The notes under the pieces: generated by a model
Databases searched by the model: none
What the model was told of the DNA's origin: nothing
What the model saw: the letters and a program-made list of their open reading frames with translations, nothing else
Translations under genes and position numbers: made by a program
Shown here: piece by piece, positions 128 through 50,913 of the stretch
Layout: every line of letters begins with the position of its first letter
Position numbering within the stretch: the first letter of the stretch is position 1
Source: Bacteroidaceae bacterium
GTDB taxonomy: Bacteria > Bacteroidota > Bacteroidia > Bacteroidales > Bacteroidaceae
NCBI GenBank assembly: GCA_017938245.1
Contig: JAGBBX010000043.1
Coordinates: 19,736-83,735 of the forward strand
Length of the DNA stretch: 64,000 bases
Reading direction: 5' to 3'

Positions 128-145
128 TAGTAAGAATTTATTATA

Positions 146-183: not shown

Positions 184-280
184 TTTCTATATAGTGCAGA
201 AACTGAATCTAAATATTTTTTAACACACAGAATAATAAAATATAGCGAAAAAAATATAAATAATTAGCAATATTTCGGTA

Positions 281-311: not shown

Positions 312-338
312 CACTCGTAATTTATAACGAACTGCAAG

Positions 339-2768: not shown

Positions 2769-2773
2769 TAATT

Positions 2774-4156
2774 ATGAAAAAACTATTTTATACCTGCAGC
2801 ATAGCTGCAACCATTTTCGCTCTAAGCTCTTGCAGCAGCGACAGTAACGAACCCGAGTTGCCACATACACCCGAAGCAAATACAAAATCGCTATATGTGA
2901 TTCCTGCTGTCGTGGGCGAAGCAAGCTATCTTATAACAGCCGAGTCGTTAGAGAGCGGTGAGGTAACAGTAGAGGGTAACGGAACCGAGGTTCTTAACGC
3001 CACCTATTGGGTATATAAAGGAATGGACTACGTATTTGCATTGGTATATAACAAAGGAGGTGCAGGAACAGGAGCATCGTATTACCTTAACGCAAACGGA
3101 CAGCCAACAGAGAAATATGCCTATACATACAATAGAATAACCACATACGGTACTTGGGGTGACAACATCATCACCGCCTCAACAGGAAACTCATCAAAGG
3201 CCGACGAGAACGGATACTATCCTCAGATGCTGCTATTTAACTATCTGAACTCGAAAGATGGTTCTCAGAGAGAGTCATCGGTTAATGCCGAGAATTTTTT
3301 GGGTAATGGCGAGAAGGTACACTTTGCCGGAATTGTAGAGGCAAACAACCGCCTTTATACATCGGTAATACCCGGTGGAATGAGCCTTTACGGAATAAGT
3401 CACACACCCGAAATGGTAACCGACCCTTCACTTATAACCACACAAGCAGGCGGCAGCGGAAGCGGTGCTTACACAGCAGGTGTGATACCAAGCACACAGT
3501 ACCCCGACAGAGCATATATTGCAATATACAGTGGTAACAGTTTCGACGAGACACCGATAATTGCCGAGACCGACAAGATTGGCTTTGCCTGCGGTCGTCG
3601 TCGTTCGCAATATTATCAGACTATTTGGGCCACAGAGAATGGCGATGTATATGCCTTCTCACCCGGATACGGACGTTCATTCCTCTCGACCGACGAACTT
3701 AAGAAAACCACAGGAAAACTACCCTCGGGAGTGGTTCGCATAAAGGCCGGTGAGACCTCTTTCGACAAAGATTATTATGTAAATATCGAGGAACTCGGAA
3801 ACAAAAACCCAATATACCGTTGTTGGTATATCGATGACAATAGTTTCTTGTTACAACTTTATAAAAATGGAGCCGAAAGTATGATTAACGACGGAACAAA
3901 TGCCGATGTCAGTGAACTTGCAATATTCGATGCCGAGAAGAAGAGCCTGAAACTTATTACAGGACTACCCGACGGAATCTCCATTGGTGGCGAGCCATAC
4001 GGTGAAGATGGTGCCGTATATATACCTATTAATGTTACAACAGGCGATTTTCCTTCATTCTACAAGGTAGATATTAATACTGCCCAGGCTGTTAAAGGAC
4101 TCACCGTAAAAGCAGAATCTATTCAGACTGTTGGTAAATTGAATTTAAAGAAATAA
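2774..4156 (+). CDS. xusB: DUF4374 surface lipoprotein, XusB-like siderophore binder
   Basis: A 460-aa lipoprotein. The lipobox is LSSC with Cys20 as the predicted lipidated residue. The residues after it (SSDSNEPE) are acidic, as in the export signal that places Bacteroidetes lipoproteins on the cell surface. The body has repeated propeller-like segments (for example the [11 protein letters not shown] region) typical of DUF4374. In B. thetaiotaomicron the equivalent protein captures ferric enterobactin for the TonB receptor. It starts 5 bp after xusA and is followed 27 bp later by the PepSY gene, so the three are probably co-transcribed. Specific ligand unknown here. Confidence 0.75.
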
Positions 4157-4183
4157 CAAACTGTTAATAGAAAAATTCTTGAA

Positions 4184-5299
4184 ATGAAAAAGGGTTTTCG
4201 CAAGATACATTTGTGGTTATCTGTTCCTTTTGGAATACTTATTACACTAATCTGTTTCTCGGGTGCAATGCTTGTATTCGAGAAAGAGGTTACACAAATG
4301 GCAAACCCCACCCTCTTTTATGTCGATAAGATAGAGGGAGAGAAAATACCGCTTGAAGAATTGGCCGAGATAGTATCTTCTACCCTACCCGACAGCATAC
4401 AGGTAACAGGGATAAATGTATTCCCCGAACCCAATCGCACCTATCAGGTAAATTTATCGAAACCACGTAAAGCATCGCTATACATCGACCCCTATACAGG
4501 CGATATAAAAGGTAATTACGAGCGCCTGCCGTTCTTCTCTGTAATGTTCAAGATGCACCGTTGGATGATGGGTAGCGCAAAAGCTCAGGATGGTAGCATT
4601 GGACTGGGAAAATTGATTGTGGGAATAAGTACAATTATGTTTGTGTTTGTTCTAATCTCGGGTGCGGTAATATGGTGGCCTAGAAATAAAAAGGTACTTA
4701 AAAATCATATATCAATTAAGTTTAATAAAGGGTGGAGACGCTTTTGGTACGACCTACACGTAGCAGGCGGAATATATGCACTTCTGCTGTTGTTAGCAAT
4801 GGCACTTACCGGACTCACCTGGTCGTTCCAATGGTACCGAAATGGTTTTTACGCTCTCTTTGGAGTAGAGACAACACAATCTACCACAAACAGCAGTGAG
4901 CCTAATAAAAATATTAAAGAGAGAAAAGGCAAAAGAGAAAAAGAGAACCAATTTGCCTATTGGCAAAAAATATGTGACGAAGTAGCGCAAAAAAATCCCT
5001 CTTTTAAACAGATTACCATTGCAAAGGGAACAGCAACCGTCTCATTCAATAAATTTGGAAACCAAAGAGCATCGGATAAATACTCATTCGATACAAAGAA
5101 TGGCGAGATAACCAAAGTATCGTTATACAAAGAGCAACCAAACTCGGGTAAGATACGTGGTTGGATATACTCGGTTCACGTAGGTAGTTGGGGCGGAATC
5201 TTTACCCGCATACTCACATTCTTGGCAGCACTTTTGGGTGCCACACTTCCGCTGACAGGGTATTATCTCTGGATAAAGAAAATATATAATAAAAAATAG
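4184..5299 (+). CDS. xusC: PepSY-associated TM protein, XusC-like
   Basis: A 371-aa inner-membrane protein of the PepSY-TM family. An N-terminal helix (HLWLSVPFGILITLICFSG) is followed by a periplasmic domain and TM segments near residues 145-165, 190-210 and 345-365. Conserved histidines sit in KMHRWMMG and in YDLHVAGGIYA. Family members are thought to release or reduce iron from imported siderophores, and the B. thetaiotaomicron homologue is needed for xenosiderophore use. It is the third gene of the operon, ending 10 bp before a strong terminator palindrome. Confidence 0.75.
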   Translation: MKKGFRKIHLWLSVPFGILITLICFSGAMLVFEKEVTQMANPTLFYVDKIEGEKIPLEELAEIVSSTLPDSIQVTGINVFPEPNRTYQVNLSKPRKASLYIDPYTGDIKGNYERLPFFSVMFKMHRWMMGSAKAQDGSIGLGKLIVGISTIMFVFVLISGAVIWWPRNKKVLKNHISIKFNKGWRRFWYDLHVAGGIYALLLLLAMALTGLTWSFQWYRNGFYALFGVETTQSTTNSSEPNKNIKERKGKREKENQFAYWQKICDEVAQKNPSFKQITIAKGTATVSFNKFGNQRASDKYSFDTKNGEITKVSLYKEQPNSGKIRGWIYSVHVGSWGGIFTRILTFLAALLGATLPLTGYYLWIKKIYNKK

Positions 5300-5309
5300 A
5301 AATGTAAGA

Positions 5310-5341
5310 AATCCGTTGTCTGATGCATCAGACAACGGATT
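5310..5341. terminator. Bidirectional terminator between xusC and trkA
   Basis: A 32-bp perfect palindrome (16-bp arms, centre TGATGCATCA) is followed on the plus strand by TATTTTTT. It lies between convergent genes and can end transcription from both sides, although the T-run is clearly better for the plus strand. Confidence 0.8.
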
Positions 5342-5372
5342 ATTTTTTGCACATCTACCATTCTCGGAAATT

Positions 5373-5792
5373 CTACAATAACTCTCCTGAATCGTTTGAG
5401 AGTATCTTCTCGGCAAAAATTCGAGCTGCATAACTCTCCGGAATCAAAATTTTCTTAATATCCATAGCTCTAAGAATTGAGGAGTGTGTGTTGTCGAGTG
5501 CACGTGCTATGATATTATTCACCTTTAATTCCTTTAACGAAGCTACAGTTCTTAATGAGCTATCCATACTCTGCCCGATAGCAACAATTACGCAATCAAT
5601 CTCATCCAAAGGCAAGCTTCGCAATGAGACTCTTTCGGTTGCATCCATAATATATGCTAAGTCTATTCTATCTTTAATCTCTTCGATGCAATGCTCATTG
5701 CAATCAACTCCAATGACAGAGTGCCCCATATCAGTAAGAGTGGCAGCAAGAGTACTTCCAAAATTTCCTAATCCTATTACAAGATATTTCAT
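5373..5792 (-). CDS. TrkA/KtrA-type RCK N-domain protein, short
   Basis: A 139-aa cytosolic regulator with a Rossmann fold. GLGNFGS at residues 7-13 is the NAD(H)/ATP-binding glycine motif, and DCNEH at about 31-35 carries the ribose-binding acidic residue. Such RCK proteins gate KtrB/TrkH potassium channels. It starts 15 bp downstream of trkH on the same strand, so it is the gating partner. Typical KtrA is about 220 aa with a C-terminal RCK_C domain. Here the ORF stops straight after the Rossmann domain and the next bases are the terminator, so RCK_C is absent. Confidence 0.8.
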   Translation of the reverse strand: MKYLVIGLGNFGSTLAATLTDMGHSVIGVDCNEHCIEEIKDRIDLAYIMDATERVSLRSLPLDEIDCVIVAIGQSMDSSLRTVASLKELKVNNIIARALDNTHSSILRAMDIKKILIPESYAARIFAEKILSNDSGELL

Positions 5793-5807
5793 ATGTATTC
5801 CTCTTTA

Positions 5808-7643
5808 TTAGTTTATTATTATATCTTCTTTTGGTAAACGGTATTTAGGCTGTTCTTTTTGTGGCAATATGCTCATAAGTACTGTAATAAAACCTACACG
5901 TCCCAAGAACATAAGCAGCACTAACAGAACTTTACTTATATCGCCTAAAAGTGGTGTAATGCCCAAACTGGAGCCTACAGTGGAGAATGCCGACACACTT
6001 TCAAACAGCAAATCAATTGATGGTATGCCCGGCTCCAACAGCAATAGTGCGACAAAGAAAAGCGCAATTACACATATTGAGCCAAAAACTACGACCAGAG
6101 TTCTTCGTATCGAACTATATGTTATTTCACGGTTAAACAGTGTTGTGGAGTGTTCACCTTTAATCAGCGACTTTAACGAAGCGATAGCAACTACAAATGC
6201 ATTTACTTTGATACCTCCAGCCGTAGATTGCGAGCCACCACCTATCCACATCAGCACCAAATATAGTATGATAGTCACTCTCGAAAAATCACTTAGTGAA
6301 ACGCTGTTAAAACCCGCTGTTCGTGGTGCCACGGCATTAAACAGAGACTGCACAATCTTTTCACCAACGGAGAATGAGGCAAACGCTCCATTCCACTCAA
6401 AGAGGGCAATTCCGACAGTTCCGATAAATATCAGAGCCAAAGAGGAATATAGTACAATCTTAGTGTTGATATCGACAATGTGCATATATCGTGACCGCTG
6501 TCCGCTCTTTCTGAACACTTTATGCAATAGTTCTGAGACATAATATGAAAGAATCCTTTTTAAACTCATAAGTATAGGAAATCCGATACCGCCCAAAACT
6601 ATAAGAAGCGAGATTACCAGATAGAAAATGTTATGATTGTATAATATCAAATCATTCCCTAGATTCCCTTCCATCGTGGAGAATCCTGCATTGCAGAATG
6701 CTGATACGGAGTGAAAGATAGAGAAGAATATCTCATCTCGGAGGGTCATTTCCATTGTTGAATGAATACTAAGCCATATAAAGATAGCGCCAATAATCTC
6801 TATCACGAAAGTAAACCCTAAAACATTTGTCAACACCGATTTCAGTGATTCGGAACTTGACGCTATCATATTCTTCAGTGAAAATTGAGAATACAATCCG
6901 ATGCCACCCATAAAAAACAGGGCAAAGAAACTCGTTATAGTCATAATACCCAACCCTCCGATCTGAATCAACAAGGCAATGATTATTTGCCCCTCCATTG
7001 TAAATGTATGAGCAATCTCCAATGGGCTTAATCCTGTTATACATACTGCACTTGTTGAAATAAAAAGTGCGTCTACCACAGGTAGCCTGATATGCTCCAT
7101 CGTCGAACGAGGGAGCAAAAGTAGCAGAGTACCAAAGGCTATTACCGTCATAAAACAGACTACAATTAAAAGTGCAGGATTTGTCCTTTTGTTTACAAAG
7201 TTTACTATCCATTGCGATATTGTAATCAGCGCCAATAGGCCTATGATGCTTATAATAAAATATTTATGAATAATCAAAGACCATAAGATAGTGATAATTT
7301 TACTATCCCCGGGCGCAGTAAAAAACTTCGGTAATGCAGAAGCACAAAGCATAATGCCTAAAATAAGGGTAAATGACATCCCCTTACGCCAAACCTCACT
7401 CCAATGAACGATAATCTTATAAGCAAATGATATGAAATAGACCCACCAACCAACGTTATATACCGACAAGATGAACGACATCTCGTGGGCGTCAAGTTCG
7501 AAACCATAATCAACTATTATGGCTGCGACAACACATATAGATGTCAGTATAGAGACTATTTTTACAATATAGTCTGCTCTTGAAACAATTGGTTTAAGGT
7601 CAATCATTGACTTATTGACTTTGTTGCACCTAAAATATACCAT
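5808..7643 (-). CDS. trkH: TrkH/KtrB family potassium uptake protein
   Basis: A 611-aa polytopic membrane protein that imports K+. Four pore-loop repeats with their selectivity-filter glycines are readable: SAVCITGLS, SAFCNAGFS, NAVAPRTAGFN and SAFSTVGSS. The extra N-terminal membrane segments (about the first 140 residues) explain the length compared with about 450 aa for KtrB. An alternative start (MIDLK) is 12 codons inside, at 7607. It is the first gene of a two-gene operon with the RCK protein, and a matching promoter lies upstream. Confidence 0.9.
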   Translation of the reverse strand: MVYFRCNKVNKSMIDLKPIVSRADYIVKIVSILTSICVVAAIIVDYGFELDAHEMSFILSVYNVGWWVYFISFAYKIIVHWSEVWRKGMSFTLILGIMLCASALPKFFTAPGDSKIITILWSLIIHKYFIISIIGLLALITISQWIVNFVNKRTNPALLIVVCFMTVIAFGTLLLLLPRSTMEHIRLPVVDALFISTSAVCITGLSPLEIAHTFTMEGQIIIALLIQIGGLGIMTITSFFALFFMGGIGLYSQFSLKNMIASSSESLKSVLTNVLGFTFVIEIIGAIFIWLSIHSTMEMTLRDEIFFSIFHSVSAFCNAGFSTMEGNLGNDLILYNHNIFYLVISLLIVLGGIGFPILMSLKRILSYYVSELLHKVFRKSGQRSRYMHIVDINTKIVLYSSLALIFIGTVGIALFEWNGAFASFSVGEKIVQSLFNAVAPRTAGFNSVSLSDFSRVTIILYLVLMWIGGGSQSTAGGIKVNAFVVAIASLKSLIKGEHSTTLFNREITYSSIRRTLVVVFGSICVIALFFVALLLLEPGIPSIDLLFESVSAFSTVGSSLGITPLLGDISKVLLVLLMFLGRVGFITVLMSILPQKEQPKYRLPKEDIIIN

Positions 7644-7669
7644 TTATCAAATTATGGTATAATAATAAG

Positions 7670-7699
7670 CAAATTTAGTAAAATAGGTGTTAAATGCAA
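7670..7699 (-). promoter_or_regulatory. Promoter for trkH-trkA
   Basis: Read on the minus strand: TTG at 7699-7697, a 19-nt spacer, then TAAATTTG at 7677-7670. It agrees with the Bacteroidetes TAnnTTTG consensus and lies 27-56 bp upstream of the annotated trkH start. Confidence 0.65.
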
Positions 7700-7834
7700 T
7701 ACAATATACATAAATTAACTGTTTTAGAATTTCTTATTGTTTTAATCGCTATTTATTATCACTATTTACATATAATACCATCTTTCTTCTTGCATTTATT
7801 ATCAGTGCAAGATGCACTATTATTCTTATTTAGG

Positions 7835-7865
7835 TTGATTATTCCAACGTTTTTGTATAACTTTG
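7835..7865 (+). promoter_or_regulatory. Promoter for the Bax-inhibitor-type gene
   Basis: TTG at 7835-7837, a 20-nt spacer and TAACTTTG at 7858-7865. The start codon is 70 nt downstream. The promoter lies inside a 62-codon hydrophobic open frame (7694-7882), which argues against that frame being a gene. Confidence 0.65.
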
Positions 7866-7935
7866 CTATTGTTATATTATAACAAGAGTATAATATTTCA
7901 AGAAACTGAATATTTTAATTCTAAATACTATAATT

Positions 7936-8640
7936 ATGGATAATTATGTAAAAAATGTTTCGGAAATTAGTGAAAGTGCCATACTGAATAAAGTAATGGC
8001 AAGGGTATTTATGCTTATGACATTTGCACTTGTTGTCACAGGTGCTACATCGTACCTTATAATTGGTAACGAGAATATTTTGATGAGTTTATTCAGCAAT
8101 ATCAGTACTTTCTATATTATTTGTGGTGCCGAGTTATTACTTGTATTTATACTAAGTTTATGTATCAATACAATATCATTTAATACAGCACTTATAATGT
8201 TTGCATTATACTCTATTATGAATGGAGTAACACTTGCACCACTTCTTTTTATGTTTACCGAAGAGTCGGTTACATCTACATTCCTTATTACAGCAGGTAC
8301 TTTTGGAGCAATGGCACTGTTTGGTTACACAACAAAAACAAGTCTCACAAGTATGGGTAAAATACTTATGATGGCACTAATAGGTCTTATAATAGCATCT
8401 ATCGTAAATATTTTCCTTAACAGCAGTGGTTTTGAAATGATATTGAACTATGCAGGAGTACTTATTTTCGTTGGTCTGACAGCTTACGATACACAAAAAG
8501 TAAAAGTTTACATACAAGATGCAATAGAGAATGATACAGTATCCATTCCTAAATTAGCCGTTATGAGCGCACTCACGCTATATCTCGACTTCATAAATCT
8601 TTTCATAAGATTACTTAGCATTCTTGGAAAGAGAAAATAA
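7936..8640 (+). CDS. Bax inhibitor-1 / YbhL family membrane protein
   Basis: A 234-aa protein with about seven hydrophobic segments. The N-terminal cytosolic stretch before TM1 (VMARVFMLMTFALVVTGATSY) and the late motif GLTAYDTQKVK are hallmarks of the BI-1/YccA/YbhL family, where the aspartate of TAYD belongs to the pH-sensing pair in calcium-leak members. It resides in the inner membrane; the bacterial role is poorly defined. It is followed 30 bp later by the aminotransferase gene, probably on the same transcript. Confidence 0.85.
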   Translation: MDNYVKNVSEISESAILNKVMARVFMLMTFALVVTGATSYLIIGNENILMSLFSNISTFYIICGAELLLVFILSLCINTISFNTALIMFALYSIMNGVTLAPLLFMFTEESVTSTFLITAGTFGAMALFGYTTKTSLTSMGKILMMALIGLIIASIVNIFLNSSGFEMILNYAGVLIFVGLTAYDTQKVKVYIQDAIENDTVSIPKLAVMSALTLYLDFINLFIRLLSILGKRK

Positions 8641-8670
8641 AACATATATAACTAACCAATAAATACAACT

Positions 8671-9864
8671 ATGAACAAATTAGCTGACCGTCTTAACCGA
8701 CTATCTCCATCGGCAACACTTGCAATGTCACAGAAGAGCCAAGAACTAAAGGCTCAAGGAGTTGATGTTATCAATATGAGTGTTGGTGAACCCGATTTCA
8801 ACACCCCCGACAATATTAAAGAGGCTGCCAAAAAAGCTGTCGACGACAACTGGTCGCGTTACTCTCCTGTACCCGGCTACCCTACTCTGCGTAAAGCTAT
8901 TGTAGAGAAATTGAAAAATGAGAACGGACTCGAGTTTACCGAGGCACAAATATCGGTATCGAACGGAGCAAAGCAGGCTGTTTGCAACGCTATTATGGCA
9001 CTTGTAAACCCCGGCGAAGAGGTTATTGTGCCTGCACCCTATTGGGTGAGCTACCCCGAGATGGTTAAACTTGCCGATGGTAACCCGGTTATTGTAGGTG
9101 CCGGAATTGAGCAAAATTTCAAGATTACAGGTGCACAGTTAGAGGCAGCAATCACCCCAAAGACAAAGATGCTTATCTTGTGTTCTCCTTCGAATCCTAC
9201 AGGTTCTGTTTATACAAAGGCCGAGCTTAAAGAACTTGCCGATGTACTTGCAAAATACCCCAATATTTATGTTGTTGCCGACGAAATTTACGAGCATATA
9301 AATTATGTTGGAGCACACGAGAGTATAGCACAATTCCCCGAGATTCGCGACCGTGTTATCATTGTAAACGGTGTTTCAAAGGCATACGCAATGACAGGAT
9401 GGCGCATTGGTTATCTTGCCGCTGCCGAGTGGATTGTTAAGGGCTGTAACAAACTACAGGGACAATACACAAGCGGTCCTTGCTCTGTATCGCAGATGGC
9501 ATCGTTAGAGGCTTATAAAGGCTCTCAGCAGGCAGTAGAGGATATGCGTCAGGCTTTCCAGCGTCGTCGCGACCTCATTGTTAAGTTGGCTAAAGAGATT
9601 CCCGGACTCGAGGTAAATGTTCCCGAAGGTGCATTCTATCTGTTCCCCAAATGCAGTTCTTACTATGGCAAAAGCTATAATGGAACTACAATTAACAATA
9701 GCGATGACCTTGCAATGTATCTGCTCACCGAGGCTCACGTTGCCACAGTAGGTGGTGGTTCATTCGGCTCACCCGAGTGCTTTAGAATGAGTTATGCAAC
9801 AAGTGACGAGAATATTATCGAGGCTATCCGCCGCATTAAAGAGGCACTCGCCAAGCTTCAGTAA
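8671..9864 (+). CDS. aspC: Class I/II pyridoxal-phosphate aspartate aminotransferase
   Basis: A 397-aa cytosolic aminotransferase of the subgroup Ib aspartate type. The PLP Schiff-base lysine is K237 in VSKAYAMTGWRIGY; the cofactor-binding NPTG is at about 175-178 and DEIYEH at about 204-209. It interconverts aspartate and oxaloacetate with glutamate/2-oxoglutarate. Length and motifs are complete. A clear terminator follows. Related family members can use aromatic substrates or prephenate, so the exact donor is inferred. Confidence 0.85.
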   Translation: MNKLADRLNRLSPSATLAMSQKSQELKAQGVDVINMSVGEPDFNTPDNIKEAAKKAVDDNWSRYSPVPGYPTLRKAIVEKLKNENGLEFTEAQISVSNGAKQAVCNAIMALVNPGEEVIVPAPYWVSYPEMVKLADGNPVIVGAGIEQNFKITGAQLEAAITPKTKMLILCSPSNPTGSVYTKAELKELADVLAKYPNIYVVADEIYEHINYVGAHESIAQFPEIRDRVIIVNGVSKAYAMTGWRIGYLAAAEWIVKGCNKLQGQYTSGPCSVSQMASLEAYKGSQQAVEDMRQAFQRRRDLIVKLAKEIPGLEVNVPEGAFYLFPKCSSYYGKSYNGTTINNSDDLAMYLLTEAHVATVGGGSFGSPECFRMSYATSDENIIEAIRRIKEALAKLQ

Positions 9865-9883
9865 TAAATTCTATTTATAAATA

Positions 9884-9926
9884 AAAAATGGTGTACCGCT
9901 CTTGATTAGTGGTACACCAATTTTTT
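9884..9926. terminator. Bidirectional terminator between aspC and the 262-aa gene
   Basis: Stem TGGTGTACC (9889-9897) pairs with GGTACACCA (9911-9919). An A-run precedes and a T-run follows, so it can work on both strands between convergent genes. Confidence 0.85.
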
Positions 9927-10713
9927 ATACGAACTTTAAATAATCAGCTATTTTTAAAATAGATTCATCAATAGTCGTTTGTTTTTCATCTATAAAAAAG
10001 AGCATTTTAAGTGGCTCGTAAGAAGATTCTTTGTAAAATTCAATACAGTAACACCCGTTAAATTTTTCTTTTAGCCCGGCATCCAAATTAGGGCAAGAGA
10101 GTTCGGGTAAAGGTCTATGAGTTCCTACTTTCTGAATATAAGGTATTCTCACTATAAAAATGCGGTCACAACCTACATATTTTGTAATTTCATTTTTCTT
10201 TATGCAACGCTCATTTTGCGACCTGAGTATAGAAATTTTTTCTCTAATACTATCCTGCTCTGCTGACGTAAATCTATTATTTACACTCTCATCTATCACT
10301 CCACCACTATTATCAATTAACCATTTTGTCCATAATGTACCACAATTATTAAGCATATAAGCCGTTGACGAGGGAATATTATAATCTCTCTCTTTTGGAT
10401 AAGACTCGGGACGAGGTTTCTTTATATTATCCACACTCATCATTATAACCGAGCAATCCTCGGATAGTTTTAAAATAGGTCCTGCCACGAAGGTTGGAAG
10501 TGCTGATATCTCATTACCCATTTCACCAAAAGTAAACACAGGAAAAGATTGTTCCGATATAAATTCCAATTTATCGGTCGGAGGTGTGAACACTACCTGA
10601 CGTTTTTCCTTTAGCTCGGCGCAATACTTTTTATAATCTCCGCTGTTTGCAAATAGTGATAAATAAGAAGAAAAAACTACTAATAAAAATAAATACAAGT
10701 TTCTCATAATCAT
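9925..10713 (-). CDS. Secreted protein of unknown function
   Basis: A 262-aa protein with a clear N-terminal signal peptide (NLYLFLLVVFSSYLSLFANS, cleavage probably after about residue 23). A second methionine is at codon 3. There is no lipobox cysteine, so a soluble periplasmic or secreted product is likely. I recognise no domain. The mature part is mixed alpha/beta with several cysteines and a repeated proline-rich style (PTDKLEFISEQSFPVFTFG). It is alone on its strand between a terminator and the origin-like gap. A minus-strand TATCTTTG at 10757-10750 could drive it. Confidence 0.65.
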   Translation of the reverse strand: MIMRNLYLFLLVVFSSYLSLFANSGDYKKYCAELKEKRQVVFTPPTDKLEFISEQSFPVFTFGEMGNEISALPTFVAGPILKLSEDCSVIMMSVDNIKKPRPESYPKERDYNIPSSTAYMLNNCGTLWTKWLIDNSGGVIDESVNNRFTSAEQDSIREKISILRSQNERCIKKNEITKYVGCDRIFIVRIPYIQKVGTHRPLPELSCPNLDAGLKEKFNGCYCIEFYKESSYEPLKMLFFIDEKQTTIDESILKIADYLKFV

Positions 10714-10749
10714 ATAACTTTATTCTATCATTTCTATCTTTAAGACGCA

Positions 10750-10757
10750 CAAAGATA
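10750..10757 (-). promoter_or_regulatory. -7 element for the 262-aa secreted protein
   Basis: TATCTTTG on the minus strand, 37 bp upstream of the start codon. No good TTG is seen at the -33 distance, so only half the promoter is supported. Confidence 0.45.
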
Positions 10758-10859
10758 CCGGAATGCTCATAGAAGTGATTAAAAAACAGATGTTTTTAAT
10801 TTATATAGAATATAAAATGGTAATAAATAATGTTTTATGACTCGACCGAAAAATAACAA

Positions 10860-11420
10860 ATTAAATATTAGTCAAGTTATATGAAATTCACCTTATTCAA
10901 ATATCTATTATTTCACTTTCAACAATAGTTGTTAGTAACCTGTTGAAAACTGCTTTAAAAGTTATTATAAAAAAGAGGCTTTAAAATTTTGTTTCACATA
11001 AAATCCTATTATAGTGGCATCGATATTCAAATTCCAAATTATTAATCCACAATTTTACCTCTAATTTTAACCTGTCTTCTCAACCGTTTTTTGGGTTTTA
11101 AACAAAATCTTTTATTCACATAATAAGTTAACCAACTATTGTTGATAAAGTATATATATCTATATGAATCAATATTTTAAACTGTTAATTAAATAGTAAT
11201 AACCTAAACCCTTCTATTGATAACCTCAAATGCAAGTATTTTCTCTTTTTTTTATCCCCACAATTAACAGGAGTTATTGTTCTAATTATTTTTTTCTATT
11301 TAAAAAAGGATAAAAGATAAATATAGTTTGTGAATTGTGTGGATAACCTGTCTATGATCTACTTCATAAAACAGACTAAAAAAAATATATATAAATAAGA
11401 ATACTATCATACATCAATAT
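10860..11420. other. Candidate chromosomal replication origin (oriC)
   Basis: An 819-bp gap (10714-11532) with no convincing gene and very low GC. It holds one exact DnaA box (TGTGGATAA, 11338-11346) and four single-mismatch boxes: TAATCCACA (11043-11051), TTATTCACA (11112-11120), TGTTGATAA (11140-11148) and TTATCCCCA (11252-11260). Runs of A/T between and after the boxes could serve as an unwinding element. Codon third positions on the plus strand lean to A and C in genes left of the gap and toward T in several (not all) genes right of it, hinting at a strand-skew switch. dnaA itself is not adjacent. Confidence 0.45.
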
Positions 11421-41503: not shown

Positions 41504-41577
41504 GGTGCGTTAGTTCAGTTGGTTAGAATACATGCCTGTCACGCATGGGGTCACGGGTTCGAGTCCCGTACGCACCG
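41504..41577 (+). tRNA. tRNA-Asp (anticodon GTC)
   Basis: A 74-nt cloverleaf. The acceptor stem GGTGCGT pairs with ACGCACC, discriminator G at 41577; the anticodon loop reads CTGTCAC with GTC; the T loop is GGTTCGAGTCC. No CCA is encoded. The 3' end is duplicated 103 bp downstream, which marks it as a probable integration site. Confidence 0.95.
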
Positions 41578-41579
41578 CA
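41560..41579 (+). repeat. Attachment-site core inside tRNA-Asp
   Basis: The 20 bp CGAGTCCCGTACGCACCGCA at the tRNA 3' end recur exactly at 41683-41702. Duplication of a tRNA 3' end is the classic trace of site-specific integration. Confidence 0.7.
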
Positions 41580-41611
41580 AAAGCCTTTCAGTTACACTGA
41601 GAGGCTTTTTT
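41579..41611 (+). terminator. Terminator of tRNA-Asp
   Basis: GCCTTTCAG pairs with CTGAGAGGC (one G-T pair) with a short loop, followed by TTTTTTG. A second hairpin with the same TTTTTTGTTT tail follows the duplicated tRNA end at about 41707-41740. Confidence 0.8.
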
Positions 41612-42077
41612 GTTTATATAACACAACGACCCGAGACCTAGGGTCAGGGTTCTTTGCAAGCAAAGCGTCCAAAGGACGATTACGAGTCCCGTACGCACCG
41701 CAGGAAGAGTTCCAAAGAAATTTGGGACTCTTTTTTGTTTCAATAAAGCAAGGGGGGAAGGATGGAGTATAAAGACCACCCTTCTCAACATCCCAATAGC
41801 AAACACAGTTCACAGAGTCACGTGAAACGCCTCTGCCGTTTACATTTGCCTTAACGAGGTTGTTTGCAGTAGTACCCCACGCCTCGCGCAAAGAACCGTC
41901 TTTCTTGAGGAACAAAAAGTGTGCTATGCCACTCTGCAACTTTGCTTTTAGCACATCAATCATCTGTGCCTTAACAACACCCATTACATCGCTGTTTGTA
42001 CGCTTAGCGATTACGTTTGCTCTGCGACTTGTACTGCTGTTGATTACCACTGCATTGTTGTTAACTATTGCTATCAT
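41592..42077 (-). pseudogene. DUF2693-type small protein, 3' end replaced at the island edge
   Basis: The open frame is 161 aa. Residues from about 55 to 100 (LFLKKDGSLREAWGT, then CYWDVEKGG) match the SH3-like DUF2693 family seen on Bacteroidales phages and mobile elements, where the pattern is REAWGT followed by YFDVEKGxWRSF. Here the match stops at about 41775. The remaining 60 residues read antisense through the terminator and duplicated tRNA end, so they are not native. I infer a gene truncated by the recombination that made this border. The true functional extent is unknown. Confidence 0.55.
41683..41702 (+). repeat. Second copy of the tRNA-Asp 3' end (att-like)
   Basis: Exact 20-bp copy of 41560-41579, followed by its own hairpin and T-run (about 41707-41740). 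The 5' part of a tRNA is absent, so it is not a second tRNA gene. Between the two copies lie the first terminator and three tiny hairpins (41635-41645, 41652-41665, 41666-41678). Confidence 0.7.
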
Positions 42078-42482: not shown

Positions 42483-43006
42483 ATGAATTTGAAATGTACA
42501 TATAATATACCAACATTGCCATTCGATTTCGATGTTGAAACAAAAGAGATATTAAAGCAACTTAGCAAATCCCGTGGAGCACTTGCAGAACTAAAAGGAT
42601 TTGCAAGAATTATACCCAACGAAGAGATTTTGATAAGCACGCTTACATTACAAGAAGCAAAAGAGAGCTCTGCCGTTGAGAATATTGTTACCACCCACGA
42701 TGAACTATACAAAGCGGATTTGAATGTAAAAGACTATTATTCGGCAAACTATACAAATACGAACTTCTGAATAACCTTTTCTTTCACCCATATACTAAAT
42801 TTGAATATATAGAAAGGGATATGCAAGTTACTAGAAATACCGCATCAAAATATCTTCAAATGATAATAAATACAGGATTGGTAGAAAAGGTAAAGGTTGG
42901 GAAGACTAACTATTATTTTAACACAAGACTTATAGATTTATTCCTAAATCATAATTCAACAGAAAAGACTAGCGTTGAATCTATTGAATCTGTATTAGAT
43001 ATGTAA
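42483..43006 (+). pseudogene. Fic/DOC family AMP-transferase, internally deleted
   Basis: The first part (42483 to about 42745) is a Fic N-terminal domain: LKQLSKSRGALAELKGFA, then LQEAKESSAVENI with the inhibitory-helix-like SSAVENI, then THDELYKADL. After a frame change at about 42750 the frame 42752-43006 encodes the C-terminal winged-helix part (LFFHPYTKFEYIE, then TRNTASKYLQMII and KVKVGKTNYYFN). The catalytic core with HxFxxGNGR, roughly 180-200 residues, is missing. Intact relatives are about 360-380 aa. The product cannot be an active AMPylator. Confidence 0.8.
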
Positions 43007-43079: not shown

Positions 43080-43176
43080 AAGAATAGGAAAAGAAGGTCT
43101 ATCTTTACCAATAATAAAACAGACTAATTTTTGAAATAAATATAAGCGTTTACGCTAACAATATAAAACTGCAAAT

Positions 43177-44808
43177 ATGCCTACACTAAATTGGATAGGA
43201 AAAGATAAGGTTGTAACACACCATCAAGAAGTTCCATACAAAGTTTTGGAACATCAATATGGTTTTCGCTCAAATGACAAAGACAACAAGAGCGAAACCA
43301 AAAGTGGCAATATGATTATTCACGGTGATAATCTTGAAGCACTGAAATCTCTGTTGCCTAAATGCGAGAACAAAATCAAATGTATATACATCGACCCACC
43401 TTACAATACGGGTAACGAGAAGTGGGTATATAATGATAATGTAAACGACCCTAAAATTAAAAAGTGGTTAGGCGAAGTTGTGGGTGCGCAAGGCGAGGAT
43501 TTGAGCAGACACGATAAATGGTTGTGTATGATGTACCCACGCTTGACACTGCTACAAAAATTATTGGCGGATGATGGCGTTATATTCATTTCAATAGATG
43601 ATAATGAATTAGCAAATCTCAAATTACTTTGCGATGAAGTTTTCGGGATAAATAATTTTGTAGGACAATGGATGTGGTTTAAGTCTAAAACACCACCAAA
43701 CCTTTCTTATAAAATAAAAAAGAATCTTGAGTATGTACTATGTTATGAAAAGAAACGCAATAACAATAGATATAGAGGGGTTCAAAAAGTAAGTAGTAGT
43801 GATGACCCAATGACTAAACCTCAGAACTCCTTTAAGGTTTTGACATTTCCACCCCATAGCATAAATGTTAAGGGTGAAGATAGAGTTATACCTGAGGGAG
43901 TATATGGAACATCAAAGTTCCCTAACAAACTGTTAAACCAACTAGTTGTAAAAAATGGAACAAATGAAAATGAAGTTTCTTTTGAGAATCGTTTTATATG
44001 GTTGCAAGAAAAATTAAATACAGAAATACAAAATGGAACAGTAATAAACTGCTCTAAATCACTAGTACTTTCATATAAAAAATCAAATTACGACCCAGAA
44101 GTTCCACCTAATCTAATTGATATATCTGTTGGAGTAAACACAACAGAAGAAGCAGGGAAGGCATTATTCAATATATTTGGTAAAACAGTTTTTGATTATC
44201 CTAAAGATGTATCATTGGTAGAGTATTTAATCAATTTTATATGTAAAGATGATTCTATTATCCTTGATTCCTTTGCAGGTTCGGGTACAACTGCCCACGC
44301 CGTATTAAACCTCAACAAGAAAGACGGAGGCAATCGCAAATTTATACTTGTTGAAATGGAGGATTACGCTGAGAGTATTACAGCAGAGCGTGTACGCAGA
44401 GTAACACAAGGGTATGGCGAAGGTGCTAAGGCGGTTGAAGGAACAGAGGGTGAATTTGATTTCTACGAGTTGGGAGAAAAACTGTTCAAAGATGATAATC
44501 ATTTGAATGAGAATGTAGATGATGAAAAGATTAGAGAGTTTATATATTACTCTGAAACCAAAGAAGCATTAACTAGGGAGCGTACCGAGGAGGCAAAATA
44601 TCTACTAGATACATACAACTCAACAGGGTATTATTTCTATTACGAAAAGAATAGATTGACAACTTTGAGTTATGACACGCTCAATATTGTAACAGAGAAG
44701 GCGGAGCAGTATGTAATATATGCAGATATATGTACATTGCCACAAGAAATGATGGCAAAGAATGGTATTGTATTCAAGAAGATTCCACGAGATATAAAGA
44801 AGTTTTAA
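43177..44808 (+). CDS. mod: Type III restriction-modification methyltransferase (Mod)
   Basis: A 543-aa beta-class N6-adenine methyltransferase. The catalytic DPPYNTG starts at residue 73 and the SAM-binding FAGSGTT is at 366-372, so motif IV precedes motif I as in type III Mod and type I-like beta enzymes. The stretch between (about 180-340) is the target-recognition domain. It modifies host DNA and, with Res, recognises the site. Res begins 3 bp downstream. The gene is AT-rich compared with the chromosome. No repeat tract for phase variation is seen. Confidence 0.93.
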   Translation: MPTLNWIGKDKVVTHHQEVPYKVLEHQYGFRSNDKDNKSETKSGNMIIHGDNLEALKSLLPKCENKIKCIYIDPPYNTGNEKWVYNDNVNDPKIKKWLGEVVGAQGEDLSRHDKWLCMMYPRLTLLQKLLADDGVIFISIDDNELANLKLLCDEVFGINNFVGQWMWFKSKTPPNLSYKIKKNLEYVLCYEKKRNNNRYRGVQKVSSSDDPMTKPQNSFKVLTFPPHSINVKGEDRVIPEGVYGTSKFPNKLLNQLVVKNGTNENEVSFENRFIWLQEKLNTEIQNGTVINCSKSLVLSYKKSNYDPEVPPNLIDISVGVNTTEEAGKALFNIFGKTVFDYPKDVSLVEYLINFICKDDSIILDSFAGSGTTAHAVLNLNKKDGGNRKFILVEMEDYAESITAERVRRVTQGYGEGAKAVEGTEGEFDFYELGEKLFKDDNHLNENVDDEKIREFIYYSETKEALTRERTEEAKYLLDTYNSTGYYFYYEKNRLTTLSYDTLNIVTEKAEQYVIYADICTLPQEMMAKNGIVFKKIPRDIKKF

Positions 44809-44811: not shown

Positions 44812-47466
44812 ATGGAATTAAAGAAATATCAACAGGAGGTTATCACAGACCTTTCAGATTTTATTGATGAAATAGATAAGCATAATCGACTTGATATAGC
44901 GTTTAGAGAGTTTTGGGCGAAAAAGGGTATATCTGTAAACGATTATGATAATGACTATCTGCACCCTTACGACAATAGTGTCAAGGGTGTACCTCGTGTA
45001 ACTGTAAAGGTGCCGACAGCAGGAGGAAAAACATTCATTGCTTGTAATGCTTTACAGACAATTTTCAAGAATATGCCAATGGGTAAACCAAAGGTTGTTG
45101 CTTGGTTCGTTCCTTCTGACACAATTCTTAAACAGACATACAAGAATCTTAGCGACCCTTCACACCCTTATAGACAGAAAATAGACAGTCATTTCAATGG
45201 CAGAGTTCAAGTTGTGGATAAGGAAGGGGCGTTAATGGGACACAATATTAAACCTAACCAAATAGGCGAACAACTCACGATATTTGTGCTTAGTGTACAA
45301 TCTTTTGCCACTAACACCAAAGATGGCAAAAGGGTCTATCGAGAAAACGAAAACCTTGAAGAATACACAAAGTTATATGACAGTATGACTAAGCGTGTAG
45401 ATGGTTCAGATGAAACAGGTTTTATTCAGGTTCTTTCGTATCTTAATCCCGTTGTTATTATAGATGAAAGTCATAATTTTGAGGCAAACTTGCGTGTTGA
45501 AATGCTCAACGCTATCAACCCTTGCTTTATTATAGACTTGACTGCAACACCTCGCAAAAAGAGTAATATAATAAGTTTTGTAGATGCTATAAAGTTGAAG
45601 CGTGCCAATATGGTTAAACTCCCTGTGATTGTATATAACCACCGCTCAACAGATGAAGTTATCTCAAAAGCAATCAACCTACAAAGAAGTCTTGAAATAA
45701 AAGCAAAAGAACAAGAATCCAATGGTGGTAGATACATAAGACCTATTGTTTTGTTCCAAGCACAACCAAGAACTAACGATGACAATATAACATTTGAGAA
45801 GATTAAGCAAAGATTGGTTGAAGTTGGCATACCCGAAGAGCAGATAAAAATAAAAACGGCAGATAAAGATGAATTGAAATCTGTTGATTTGATGGGTAAG
45901 GATTGCCCCGTACGCTATATTATAACAGTAAATGCGCTGAAGGAGGGTTGGGATTGCCCATTTGCTTATATACTCGCCTCGCTTGCTAATAAGACTTCTC
46001 GTGTAGATGTAGAGCAGATTTTGGGTAGAGTGTTAAGATTGCCATATACTACGAAGCACAAAGATGATTTGCTGAATCTATCCTATGTGTTTACGGCGTC
46101 TAATGACTTCAAAGATACGTTAGAAAATATTGTAAGAAGTCTAAACAAGGCGGGTTATAGTAAGAGAGATTATAGAATCTCTGAAACCCAAGAAACACAA
46201 CTGAATGATAATACACAAGAATTATCACTTAGTGATTTGTTTGGAACAGGTACCGAACCACAACCTTATAAAAGCAACGATGAAACCACATCTATTCTCT
46301 GCGATAATGCAGAAGTTGAGTTCAACACAGAAGCAATAAAGGCATCAATCAATAGTGTAGAAGCTCAAAGCGATATAGATGAAATTGAACAGTTTGCCAA
46401 GAATACAAATAGTCTATTCGAGGCAGAAATGAATGAGGCGGAAAAAGAAAATGATGATACTCCAAACGAAATTAAAGATATGACAAAATACTATAAGATA
46501 AAGGACGCTTTTGCTGAATATGCAAGTAATGTGAAACTGCCTATTTTTGTCAAGAAGGTAAATACTGCATCTTTTTTTGAACCTGAAGGTGCAGTTGTTC
46601 CTCTTGATAAGAAAATGCTTTCTGAAGGATTTGACTTGAATATTGCTGATAAAACAATAAACTTTGCTAGAACAGAGGCGGAGGCACGAATGATTGATTT
46701 GGATTCAACGAATGAATATATTCCTGTACCAAAGAAAATTAATTCAAGTATTTTAGAAAACATTAGAAACTACTTCAATGCACTGCCTGCAGAAAGTAAA
46801 AAGAAAGAATTATCAAAATCTATTGCAAAAGATATTAAGATAGATGAGATTTCGGAACCACAGATAGCAAACTACATTTATGATGTTATAGAAAAGTTTG
46901 ATGATGAGGCATTGTCTGATATGATGTTCTATCGAACGGAAACAACTAAAAAAATCAAACAGAAGATAGATTCCCTTTTGGCAGCACATCAAGAAAAGGT
47001 ATTCAATGATTTGCTCGATATTGGAGAAATCAAATGCGGTATGCCTTATGAGTTTCCACCTCGTATTACACACAAGAAAATCGCTATTGGAGTATATAAG
47101 GGATTATACACAGAGGAGGAAGGCGATATGAATGATTATGAATCTAAAGTCATCGATGCTGTTGCAAATCTTGACAATGTGGTTTTTTGGCATAGAAATC
47201 CACAATATTCAAAAGGATTCTTAATAAATGGGTATATAAATCACTATCCAGACTTTATTATTTATTTAAAAAGTGGGATGACTATTGTTTTGGAGACTAA
47301 AGGTGATGACAGAGATAATTCCGACACTAAAAAGAAAGTTGATATTGGAAAGAAATGGGCAAGCAAAGCTGGTGATAAATTTAGATATTTTGTGGTTTTT
47401 GAGAAAACTAAAATGGAGGGCACGATGACTTTTCCCGAGTTTGTTGACAAAATAAAAAGAATGTAA
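44812..47466 (+). CDS. res: Type III restriction enzyme, Res subunit
   Basis: An 884-aa translocase/endonuclease. Walker A PTAGGKT is at 68-74, DESH (motif II) at 218-221, TATPRK follows as motif III, and the helicase C-terminal motif QILGRVLRLP (motif VI) is at about 401-410. The C-terminal nuclease carries PDFIIYL with Asp814 and LETKGDD with Glu828/Lys830, a complete PD-ExK site. It cuts unmodified DNA with Mod after ATP-driven diffusion. Intact by eye. Confidence 0.93.
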   Translation: MELKKYQQEVITDLSDFIDEIDKHNRLDIAFREFWAKKGISVNDYDNDYLHPYDNSVKGVPRVTVKVPTAGGKTFIACNALQTIFKNMPMGKPKVVAWFVPSDTILKQTYKNLSDPSHPYRQKIDSHFNGRVQVVDKEGALMGHNIKPNQIGEQLTIFVLSVQSFATNTKDGKRVYRENENLEEYTKLYDSMTKRVDGSDETGFIQVLSYLNPVVIIDESHNFEANLRVEMLNAINPCFIIDLTATPRKKSNIISFVDAIKLKRANMVKLPVIVYNHRSTDEVISKAINLQRSLEIKAKEQESNGGRYIRPIVLFQAQPRTNDDNITFEKIKQRLVEVGIPEEQIKIKTADKDELKSVDLMGKDCPVRYIITVNALKEGWDCPFAYILASLANKTSRVDVEQILGRVLRLPYTTKHKDDLLNLSYVFTASNDFKDTLENIVRSLNKAGYSKRDYRISETQETQLNDNTQELSLSDLFGTGTEPQPYKSNDETTSILCDNAEVEFNTEAIKASINSVEAQSDIDEIEQFAKNTNSLFEAEMNEAEKENDDTPNEIKDMTKYYKIKDAFAEYASNVKLPIFVKKVNTASFFEPEGAVVPLDKKMLSEGFDLNIADKTINFARTEAEARMIDLDSTNEYIPVPKKINSSILENIRNYFNALPAESKKKELSKSIAKDIKIDEISEPQIANYIYDVIEKFDDEALSDMMFYRTETTKKIKQKIDSLLAAHQEKVFNDLLDIGEIKCGMPYEFPPRITHKKIAIGVYKGLYTEEEGDMNDYESKVIDAVANLDNVVFWHRNPQYSKGFLINGYINHYPDFIIYLKSGMTIVLETKGDDRDNSDTKKKVDIGKKWASKAGDKFRYFVVFEKTKMEGTMTFPEFVDKIKRM

Positions 47467-47468: not shown

Positions 47469-47720
47469 ATGCCAAAGGTTTATGAGTATGCAACCTATGT
47501 TGCAAATAAGGAAAGTAACAAAAAGGTCGGTGCACCATATTATGATATTGCAACTGATGTAATCTTCGAATGGGAAGAAAAGGGTATTAAATTCGATAAT
47601 GAAAAAGAACATATTGAATATATAAGGTCGAAGCGTTGTGGCAATGATAAGACAAATGCAATAAACGCTTTTATACGCAATTATAAAAATTGGAGCAAAC
47701 ACCGTATCGGAAAGCACTGA
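47469..47720 (+). CDS. Small protein coupled to the Res gene
   Basis: An 83-aa charged, soluble protein starting 2 bp after the res stop, so its translation is probably coupled. It is predicted to be mainly helical (EWEEKGIKFDNEKEHIEYIRS) with a basic C-terminus (RNYKNWSKHRIGKH). I recognise no family. Its position makes it a candidate accessory or anti-toxin-like partner of the R-M system; this is inference from spacing alone. Confidence 0.65.
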   Translation: MPKVYEYATYVANKESNKKVGAPYYDIATDVIFEWEEKGIKFDNEKEHIEYIRSKRCGNDKTNAINAFIRNYKNWSKHRIGKH

Positions 47721-47812
47721 AACTGTGGTAAATTTTAAGTTTCCAAAAAATATGTTGTTGTATTAGCGTTTAATTAGCAAAAACGCTAACCAAAATAAGA
47801 AAAATAAACATT

Positions 47813-48043
47813 ATGACTACCGCAGATAAAATAAGGGAACTGATAGAGGAAAAAGGAGTAACTCAGCGAGAATTTACCGAGTTAGTCGGCATACATTATA
47901 TAACACTATGCAACAACCTCAAAAACGACAATTTCAGTCATAACAGCATTGAGAAGATTGCTAACGCTTTCCATTTGTCTATATATGATTTACTTGCCGA
48001 TGAGGCCCAAAGCAACCTTCTCGAATGTGGAAGGTTATATTGA
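47813..48043 (+). CDS. XRE-family helix-turn-helix regulator, possibly frameshifted
   Basis: A 76-aa Cro/CI-type protein. The DNA-binding HTH is at about 14-60 (VTQREFTELVGIHYITLCNNL, then KIANAFHLSIYDLLA). After LADEA the frame runs into a short tail and stops at 48043. In the +1 frame the sequence continues as FSNVEGYIEYNGKIQKI, a segment that in many Bacteroidales phage regulators follows the HTH directly. One extra base in the GGCCC run near 48004 would explain it. Either a frameshift mutation or two overlapping cistrons. Confidence 0.75.
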   Translation: MTTADKIRELIEEKGVTQREFTELVGIHYITLCNNLKNDNFSHNSIEKIANAFHLSIYDLLADEAQSNLLECGRLY

Positions 48044-48845
48044 ATATAACGGCAAGATTCAAAAGATAATGGATTTCAGAAATCTTAAAAAACTTGTCAA
48101 TGACATCGAACAACAAGAGTTATATATGAAGGCAAGGCAAGCGAAACTGCCCAAACAGAACGCTATTGAACTAGAAGATATAACCCTTCTGCAATGGGAG
48201 GAATATAATGCTACACAAGTAGAGGTAAAGAGTTTCAGGCACAATTACGATATTGTTGATGAAAGCGTTTTCAATGTTGGCAATATGTGTGCCGGATACC
48301 CATTTGAACTGAATGGTATCACTTTCAACAACTCAGAGAGTGCTTATATTGCAGGAATTTACTCCAACAACACTGCCGAACATCGCAGATTAAAAGAGGC
48401 GTTGATTGCCAACAATGACGGTTACAGAGCAAAAAAGGAGTATCGACACAAGCAGAAGTGTAAAGGTAATCAAGAGTTTGCAAACCTACTTAAAACAATA
48501 CCCGACACAGCAATGATTGTGGAGAACTCTACGTGTATGACGGGAGCAACAGCACAAGTATGGGGTTGTTTCAATAAAGAGTTGGAAGAATTAAGAAACG
48601 CCAAAGAAACACGATTTGAGATAGAACACTCCAACGATAAGGAGTTCAGAAATAAAAAGTCCACTATGCTAAACATTGAACGTAACAAGTGGAACAACTA
48701 TGGTATTTGGAGTGGCAAGAACTATATGGGAAAGATTATAAAGATGTGTTCTATATGCCTTAAAAAGGGCATTGAACGGCCTATTGACTACGAACTGTTA
48801 AGAAGCAAGCATATTCACCTATTAGGGCAAGAAATTTTATTCTAA
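48000..48845 (+). CDS. NADAR-like domain protein (putative ADP-ribosyl glycosidase)
   Basis: A 281-aa frame, taking the ATG at 48000 that lies within the XRE gene. The first 30 residues (VEGYIEYNGKIQKIMDF) belong by type to the XRE protein. Residues from about 85 to the end look like YbiA/NADAR: AGYPFELNGITFNNSESAYIAG (with the conserved SE), a middle helical part, then GIWSGKNYMGKIIKM, matching the GKNxLGxLLM end of that family. NADAR proteins remove ADP-ribose from DNA or protein and occur in phage-defence loci. Homology is by motif reading, so moderate confidence. Confidence 0.6.
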   Translation: MRPKATFSNVEGYIEYNGKIQKIMDFRNLKKLVNDIEQQELYMKARQAKLPKQNAIELEDITLLQWEEYNATQVEVKSFRHNYDIVDESVFNVGNMCAGYPFELNGITFNNSESAYIAGIYSNNTAEHRRLKEALIANNDGYRAKKEYRHKQKCKGNQEFANLLKTIPDTAMIVENSTCMTGATAQVWGCFNKELEELRNAKETRFEIEHSNDKEFRNKKSTMLNIERNKWNNYGIWSGKNYMGKIIKMCSICLKKGIERPIDYELLRSKHIHLLGQEILF

Positions 48846-49023: not shown

Positions 49024-50304
49024 ATGATTCATTCTTTTTATGTAGAGAATTTCTTGTCTATTAGAGATAGACAGGAGATTTCTTTTGCAACCACATCTGA
49101 TAAAACCGTAAGGGATTTTGTGGCTGTGGAGGTTAAACCCAATGTATATATTAATAAGTTGGGTGTATTCTATGGTGCAAACGCTTCTGGAAAATCGAAT
49201 GTTCTTTTTGCAATGGAGGCACTGTTCTATTTATTGTACGCTCCTCAATATGATAAAAGTAATGAGGTTGCAAAATATCTGCCGTTTGCATTATGTAAAA
49301 ACAAACCAACAACTTTGGGAGTAGTCTTTTTTAGGAACGGAATTAGATATGATTATGAGGTATCATACTGCAATACTCATATAATTAGTGAGAAATTAGA
49401 GTTTTATCCTACTAGAACTCGTGCAGAGTTCTATACAAGAGAGTTTATTGGTATAGACAAACAACCAAAAATCAAAATTGGGGGCAAAACAAAAGTATTG
49501 TCAAAAACAAGAAACGATATAATCACAAACACCTTTAACAATCATACAGTGTTAAGCACCATTGGAAAAACTTCATTAAATGATGATGCCTATTTGTTTG
49601 TTGATTTATACAATTGGATTAAAACAAATGTGCATAATGTTGATGGAGATTCTAAAGGAAAATCAATGATAACAGAAATCAACAAGGTATGTAAAGATGG
49701 TACAAAGAAGGATTTCTATCTAAGTCTTCTACGTAAAGCAGACTTTAACATTACCAACTTTTCTGTTGTTGATAGGACCGATAATTTGCCATCTGACTTT
49801 GTAAAAGAAATAATCTCTTCTGGTTTATCAGATGAGGATAAATTCAGTATATTAAATGATGTTGCATTTACCAACCATTCACAAAATGGAGATTTTGATA
49901 TTGAATCAAGATTCCAATCGGATGGAACAAGAAGATTTACAGAACTGCTTAAGTATCTATATGATTTGGTAAGCGAAAATCATATTTACTTTTTTGATGA
50001 GTTGGGTAATCGTATGCACTATGATTTAATGGTATATTACATTGCACTAATGTTGCATAACTCTGACCAGTCGCAGTTATTTTTCTCTACACATAATATT
50101 TTATTATTAGAGGAAGATTTTATTCGTAGAGATATGGTCTATCTTGTTGATAAAGATAAGGAAAATGCCACATCTTCGTACACTCGTGTTAGTGATATGG
50201 GATTACATAAGAATCTGTCATTGTATAATGCCTACAAAATTGGCAAATTGGGTGCAAAACCCGAATTAGGCTCTCCTTATATAGATGACGTGAACGAGTG
50301 TTGA
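49024..50304 (+). CDS. AAA15-type ATPase (RloA/AbiLi-like)
   Basis: A 426-aa SMC-like ATPase. Walker A GANASGKS is at 51-58, Walker B IYFFDELG with Asp325/Glu326, and the switch histidine in FFSTHN at about 360. The frame is open from 48883, but the promoter at 48922-48954 and the usual family start (MIHSFYVENFLSIRD) place the start at 49024. It is paired with an RloB protein 12 bp downstream, the layout of AbiL/RloAB systems thought to cause abortive infection. Operates in the cytosol; trigger unknown. Confidence 0.82.
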   Translation: MIHSFYVENFLSIRDRQEISFATTSDKTVRDFVAVEVKPNVYINKLGVFYGANASGKSNVLFAMEALFYLLYAPQYDKSNEVAKYLPFALCKNKPTTLGVVFFRNGIRYDYEVSYCNTHIISEKLEFYPTRTRAEFYTREFIGIDKQPKIKIGGKTKVLSKTRNDIITNTFNNHTVLSTIGKTSLNDDAYLFVDLYNWIKTNVHNVDGDSKGKSMITEINKVCKDGTKKDFYLSLLRKADFNITNFSVVDRTDNLPSDFVKEIISSGLSDEDKFSILNDVAFTNHSQNGDFDIESRFQSDGTRRFTELLKYLYDLVSENHIYFFDELGNRMHYDLMVYYIALMLHNSDQSQLFFSTHNILLLEEDFIRRDMVYLVDKDKENATSSYTRVSDMGLHKNLSLYNAYKIGKLGAKPELGSPYIDDVNEC

Positions 50305-50316: not shown

Positions 50317-50913
50317 ATGAATAATGTTGAGATTATAATCGGTGAGGGTATAACTGAAGAATATTATTTCAAGTCGGTTAGGGATGTTGTATATATCAAA
50401 CCCCTAGCAAAGCGCATAAAACCATATAACTTAAAAGAATTGGAGAAAGCAATAAAACAATATGCAGGGGGTGGGTATACTACGATTCATTGTCTTATTG
50501 ATATGGATAACAAAGTTAAAAAGGCAGAAACGCTTTCAAACTATATAAAACTAAAGGAAAAATATCATAACAAAACAATATCCGATGGCAAAAAAGGAGT
50601 AAACTGCAAAGTTTTCTTCTATGAATCATATCCTTGTACAGAAGCTTTCTTCTACTATTACTTTGAATATTCTACCGCTGAAAAAACAAACGAAGGATTA
50701 AAAAGTTGGTTGAACAATAGGTGTGGATATGAAACAAGCGAAAGATATTTAAGCACCCATTCTCTACACAAAGAATTCAAAAAGCACGGTGGTTGTCTTA
50801 AAAAGGCAATTGAAAACTCAAACAAATCGGTTAAATCTAGAGAAGAAGGCAATTACAGCTTTACATATACCGAAATTGGTGGATTAGTAGAGAAACTTGG
50901 AATAAAAGAATAG
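50317..50913 (+). CDS. RloB-like TOPRIM protein (AbiLii-like)
   Basis: A 198-aa protein. GEGITEEYYF at 8-17 gives the first TOPRIM glutamate, LIDMDNK at about 60-66 the Asp-X-Asp, and FFYESYPCTEAFFYYYF at about 103-119 the following SYPCxE block typical of RloB. TOPRIM members of this class are probably nucleases activated by the partner ATPase. The pair closes the island; an inverted repeat (50934-50960) and the MITE-like element follow. Confidence 0.8.
   Translation: MNNVEIIIGEGITEEYYFKSVRDVVYIKPLAKRIKPYNLKELEKAIKQYAGGGYTTIHCLIDMDNKVKKAETLSNYIKLKEKYHNKTISDGKKGVNCKVFFYESYPCTEAFFYYYFEYSTAEKTNEGLKSWLNNRCGYETSERYLSTHSLHKEFKKHGGCLKKAIENSNKSVKSREEGNYSFTYTEIGGLVEKLGIKE

Follow-up and report, generated by a model that had tools for sequence, protein, structure and literature searches.

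A split gene for a helix-turn-helix–NADAR protein, likely a decaying regulator, in an AT-rich defence island of a Bacteroidaceae bacterium

The stretch analyzed here, called the window, comprises 64,000 nucleotides of contig JAGBBX010000043.1 (positions 19,736 to 83,735) from a Bacteroidaceae bacterium (assembly GCA_017938245.1). It carries two overlapping frames, one encoding an XRE-type helix-turn-helix (HTH) domain and the other a NADAR-like domain, between a type III restriction-modification (RM) system and an RloAB pair (Table 1). This placement had been proposed in a sequence-only reading of the window and agreed with the profile matches of the neighboring genes.

Two frames and their single-frame relatives

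The open reading frame (ORF) listing confirmed that the two frames lie one base out of register, the second being listed as an ORF from TTG 47949 to 48845. The HTH frame matched Pfam HTH_26 with 28.6 bits (cut-off 22). For the second frame, Pfam gave no match at E 0.1, PADLOC gave none and PHROGs gave one (E 0.043), and the only relevant NCBIfam match was NF053876, "NADAR family anti-phage protein" (E 2.2e-4, 20 bits, cut-off 240). The PF08719 profile had 0 matches in the genome of the window. The NADAR-like identity given to this frame by the sequence-only reading is firm from its relatives and from structure.

A profile scan of genome contigs with an alignment of seven relatives detected 43 loci, all from Bacteroidales by their record titles. 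In four of them a single frame encoded the HTH, the bridge and the NADAR, namely in L019 (Bacteroides sp. Marseille-P3684), L020 (B. mediterraneensis), L021 (a Porphyromonadaceae metagenome-assembled genome, MAG) and L024 (a Bacteroidaceae MAG). A fifth fused gene, L076, was located on an IMG/VR contig. The search for single-frame homologues thus succeeded, and the suggestion that the bridge is normally fused to the HTH held in all five. The HTH-and-bridge arrangement was not seen in the printed frame of the other 39 loci, most of which were NADAR-like frames of about 245-280 residues, with some longer fusions or fragments. HTH and NADAR as two neighboring genes were found in none of the relatives, the 39 loci not having been checked individually for an HTH gene.

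Close relatives were rare. The second frame matched nine of the 301 genomes of its GTDB family, its own included, and one of the 44 genomes of its genus, which was its own. With the L021 fused protein as query at the order level, one of 393 genomes matched, again that of the window (E 1e-12), while the L021 tail by itself had matches in 4 of 201 genomes of the family, including this one. The best matches in the search for closer relatives were 40-48% identical. No relatives were detected by tblastn among phages and plasmids with either the window NADAR or the L021 fused protein. In IMG/VR, the window protein found three stretches with 0 confirmed, and alignment A2 found 28 stretches with one confirmed (L076). 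The L076 contig has 38,653 bases, and its positions 1-11176 around the fused gene encoded type I RM and zinc-ribbon-like proteins. The viral label of this contig is doubtful, since no recognized phage structural gene was present in the 11 kb seen.

A phylogenetic tree was calculated from the NADAR parts only (37 rows). The window grouped with L024 and L076 (support 96/82), and all five fused proteins plus the window formed one clade (84/95).

The predicted model of L019 displayed the YbiA-like fold of the NADAR superfamily (E. coli YbiA, 2b3w; Phytophthora nicotianae NADAR, 8bau), so that the comparison with YbiA/NADAR proposed earlier did reveal similarity. The fused relatives differ from this superfamily by the added HTH, hairpin and long helix, the latter being 39 residues long in the L019 model and 23 in that of the window. 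In the window, no single frame contains the complete set of HTH, hairpin, long helix and NADAR. Its elements keep the fused order, but in two frames and with the NADAR core partly missing.

Loss within the NADAR core and likeness to known systems

The second lesion had been missed in the sequence-only reading. About 24 residues of the NADAR core, around the motif R.D(W/F)..F...WML..W, are absent in-frame from the window. The block was present in all 34 aligned relatives and in 8/8 relatives found with the window protein. One of the two search patterns was the WML block itself, and relatives found by it lean towards block-bearing sequences; the eight found with the window protein are free of this bias, although at least six of them are genomes also found by the patterns. 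By eye, the block was also present in a ninth family locus outside the alignment (L018). The alignment (A3) held 34 of the 43 loci, after L030, L042, L050, L054, L056, L057, L059, L060 and L061 were dropped. The block was visible by eye in the first six of these, and L059-L061 were C-terminal pieces only in the printed frame, so other damaged copies may exist. Of the 45 most conserved columns, the gap takes up six; among the rest, the window retains 35 and differs in four.

The model of the window fragment is missing two core helices that L019 has, and the Z score to NADAR drops to 7.2. With these helices lost, the predicted window NADAR is unlikely to function even as a separate protein. In the available text of PMC11543638, the pyrophosphate in the P. 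nicotianae NADAR structure is contacted by W89 and R93. By our own mapping on the motif, the equivalents of both residues would lie in the missing block.

Two active-site glutamates and a tryptophan are conserved in most relatives, a further likeness to the NADAR superfamily. The glutamates, mapped via the YbiA alignment as E190 and E273 (E43 and E125 in P. nicotianae), occurred in 32 of the 34 relatives each, and the window has both. Seven residues past the first glutamate, a lysine (K50/K95) is described as needed for guanine-ADP-ribose hydrolysis in the same available text (PMC11543638). At this position the 34 relatives have E (26), Q (3), L (3), I (1) or A (1), and the window has I.

Existing profiles recognized the family weakly. 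Against PF08719 (cut-off 35.1), five of seven relatives scored 16-34 bits, L019 had no match and L042 passed via a second NADAR domain. In L042, a frame of 1273 residues (4408-8229) combines this NADAR type with a YbiA-like NADAR and an ADP-ribosylglycohydrolase. NF053876 (DS32_2 NADAR family anti-phage protein) was the best NCBIfam match in all six NADAR relatives (E 1e-9 to 1e-17), but their scores of 38-64 bits fall below the curated cut-off (240) and the NADAR part alone was matched. The available part of PMC13092281 names NADAR domains among its systems, and its main text has 0 occurrences of DS-32.

Other known systems differ in architecture. The restriction-modification controller (C) proteins listed, such as C.Esp1396I, are small and have no NADAR, and the HTH fold match to C proteins differs by no more than 1 Z from those to many other XRE domains. 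The DarT1–NADAR toxin-antitoxin places a NADAR domain in phage conflict, as far as described in the available text (PMC11543638), with an architecture different from the HTH–NADAR fusion. No ADP-ribosyltransferase (ART) toxin was present among the neighbors scanned, where no dedicated DarT search was made. NrtR regulators, which in the source as available combine a Nudix domain with an HTH, offer an analogy only, as regulators with a domain from an ADP-ribose-processing family; their domains are unrelated to those of HTH–NADAR proteins and no homology is claimed.

The defence island, its neighbors and candidate operators

The region from about 41.6 to 51.1 kb has a G+C content of 34.5% (31.5-37.5% per kilobase), compared with 39-51% per kilobase in the flanks, and looks like an acquired island. 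The tRNA-Asp stands at its start. The 3' end of this tRNA is repeated at 41684-41702, about 105 bp downstream, with no third copy in the window. Mod and RloB gave near-complete coverage of a profile, while for Res (884 residues) the best single stretch spans about half of a 898-position model. A frame of 83 residues between res and the HTH (47469-47720) had no convincing family match and none in related loci. A nearby fic encodes a Fic N-terminal domain (42483-42770) and a SoFic-like C-terminal domain (42764-43003) in different frames. No room is left in 42483-43003 for the catalytic core, a loss similar to that of the NADAR.

Table 1. Position of the split gene, its parts and neighboring features in the window
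Feature	Position	Strand	Basis
tRNA-Asp at the start of the AT-rich island	41504-41578		
Palindrome with the same half-site as the inverted repeat, upstream of mod; candidate second operator	43145..43156		
Type III restriction-modification mod	43177-44808	+	Profile matches, uninterrupted frame
Type III restriction-modification res	44812-47466	+	Profile matches, uninterrupted frame
Inverted repeat (9-bp arms, 9-bp spacer) upstream of the HTH start; candidate operator	47763..47789		
XRE-type HTH frame, 76 residues, ATG start; probable 5' half of a former fused gene	47813..48043	+	ORF, Pfam HTH_26
Second frame, encoding the hairpin, the long helix and a damaged NADAR-like domain	48003..48845	+	280 open codons to stop
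Bridge VEGYIEYNGKIQKI, predicted beta hairpin, 3' of the HTH in fused relatives	48027..48068	+	Alignment A3, model strands
Long helix after the hairpin, putative dimerization stalk	48075..48143	+	Predicted models; dimerization inferred
Junction, near 48452/48453, at which about 24 residues are lost in-frame	48447..48458	+	Alignment gap; predicted local distance difference test (pLDDT) <50, model residues 144-154
RloA/AbiLi-like ATPase	49024-50304	+	Profile matches, uninterrupted frame
RloB	50317-50913	+	Profile matches, uninterrupted frame

RM genes adjoined three of the five readable loci of the fused type, and their types differed (III in the window, II in L019 and I in L076). At L038 (5225-7645), a stand-alone NADAR frame is followed by an RloA/AbiLi-like match (25% identity), as in the window.

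Inverted repeats were located upstream of the gene in the window, L019, L020 and L021. Allowing up to three mismatches, 0.05 occurrences of the repeat before the HTH were expected in the window and one was found. For the palindrome before mod, 0.06 were expected and one was found, with a pattern chosen after seeing it.

The end of the fused gene of L019 (7193-8083, G008 C1) adjoins the 3' part of another gene, which we take to be comM/yifB-like. A ChlI domain is encoded about 10.6 kb upstream on the same strand, and comM may therefore be split at L019 by an element with a small tyrosine integrase. A small integrase and a WYL_2-like protein are common to L019 (1160-2660), L021 (2009-3586) and L042 (1308-2949). 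The window also encodes a WYL_2-like protein (41592-42077) and has no match to the integrase of these three loci.

A probably decaying fused regulator and its possible role

Computation showed that relatives carry the fusion, that an intact relative has the NADAR fold, that the assembled sequence has both differences, and that the NADAR of the window is placed among fused ones in the tree. In our judgement, a fused Bacteroidales regulator is most probably decaying at this locus, which lies in the AT-rich defence island beside the tRNA-Asp. From N to C terminus, the regulator would carry an XRE HTH, a beta hairpin, a long helix and a NADAR domain. The first lesion would be the shift of register by one base that separates the HTH from the hairpin, the second the in-frame loss that removes two core helices. 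Phylogeny suggests a fused ancestor that was later split as the simplest history. Of the two possibilities in the sequence-only reading, a single HTH-linker-NADAR gene now out of register is therefore the better one, given five single-frame homologues, the structure and the NADAR-only tree, and the deliberately overlapping pair found no support.

In such a pair, a shortened NADAR protein with a start of its own would be made alongside the HTH, translationally coupled to it and acting together with it. It agrees with in-frame ATGs of the second frame that overlap the HTH frame, with the open second frame and with its retained conserved columns, and we consider it quite unlikely. Very improbable is programmed ribosomal frameshifting that would yield one regulated product from both frames. 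The overlap, which is short, falls exactly at the HTH-hairpin linker, but the junction is in one frame in five relatives, our own reading saw no slippery-site hallmark (without a tool test) and the missing core block is left unexplained. Both were rejected in favor of a decaying fused gene. It is unlikely, too, that assembly errors account for one or both lesions and that the cell holds an intact fused gene. The assembly is of metagenome type and was judged without reads, and the second frame is otherwise well kept. However, a single gene would have to contain two errors, independent of each other and different in kind, while the frames of mod, res, RloA and RloB are all uninterrupted and the nearby fic has a similar internal loss.

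Several observations weigh against a decaying regulator with operators of its own. The second frame has 280 open codons and, outside the gap, retains 35 of 39 conserved columns, which points to recent decay or to a remaining constraint. Completeness of the assembly is 85.95% and contamination 6.91%, and an error in it is possible. In the branch uniting the fused proteins with the window (84/95), bootstrap falls short of the 95 mark, and the window branch is long (1.04), which makes its exact position unsure. No inverted repeat precedes L024, and the one preceding L019 and L020 is different. The genome of the window has one further occurrence of a similar repeat, on a different contig. These repeats may have arisen by chance. 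No RM neighbors turned up at L021 or L024. The other loci were covered for RM genes by tblastn alone, with those proteins from the window, L019 and L076 as queries, by which only near kin are detectable.

The intact HTH–NADAR family is more interesting than the copy in the window. The arrangement had been called unfamiliar. No description of an HTH–NADAR regulator was found among the matches listed in a limited search of the open-access literature, although the fusion itself recurs in Bacteroidales. Intact members might form dimers through the long helix and act as a self-regulating switch, binding the inverted repeat before their own gene and neighboring restriction genes. The NADAR pocket might sense, and perhaps slowly hydrolyse, an ADP-ribose-linked molecule arising in phage or toxin attack, and the ligand would change DNA binding and thus control restriction or defence genes. 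We propose only tentatively that this family uses a lysine-less NADAR as a sensor of an ADP-ribose-linked signal to control adjacent restriction or defence genes, and that the window holds a disarmed copy. There, a short HTH peptide would be the sole possible folded unit, without stalk and sensor, and control has therefore probably been lost.

If true, these proteins would link restriction systems directly to alarm molecules derived from NAD. A regulator–NADAR fusion beside restriction systems suggests a testable role in which ADP-ribose-derived signals control the expression of defence genes. The copy in the window is of interest mainly for indicating that the defence genes around such a regulator can keep open frames even when it is lost.
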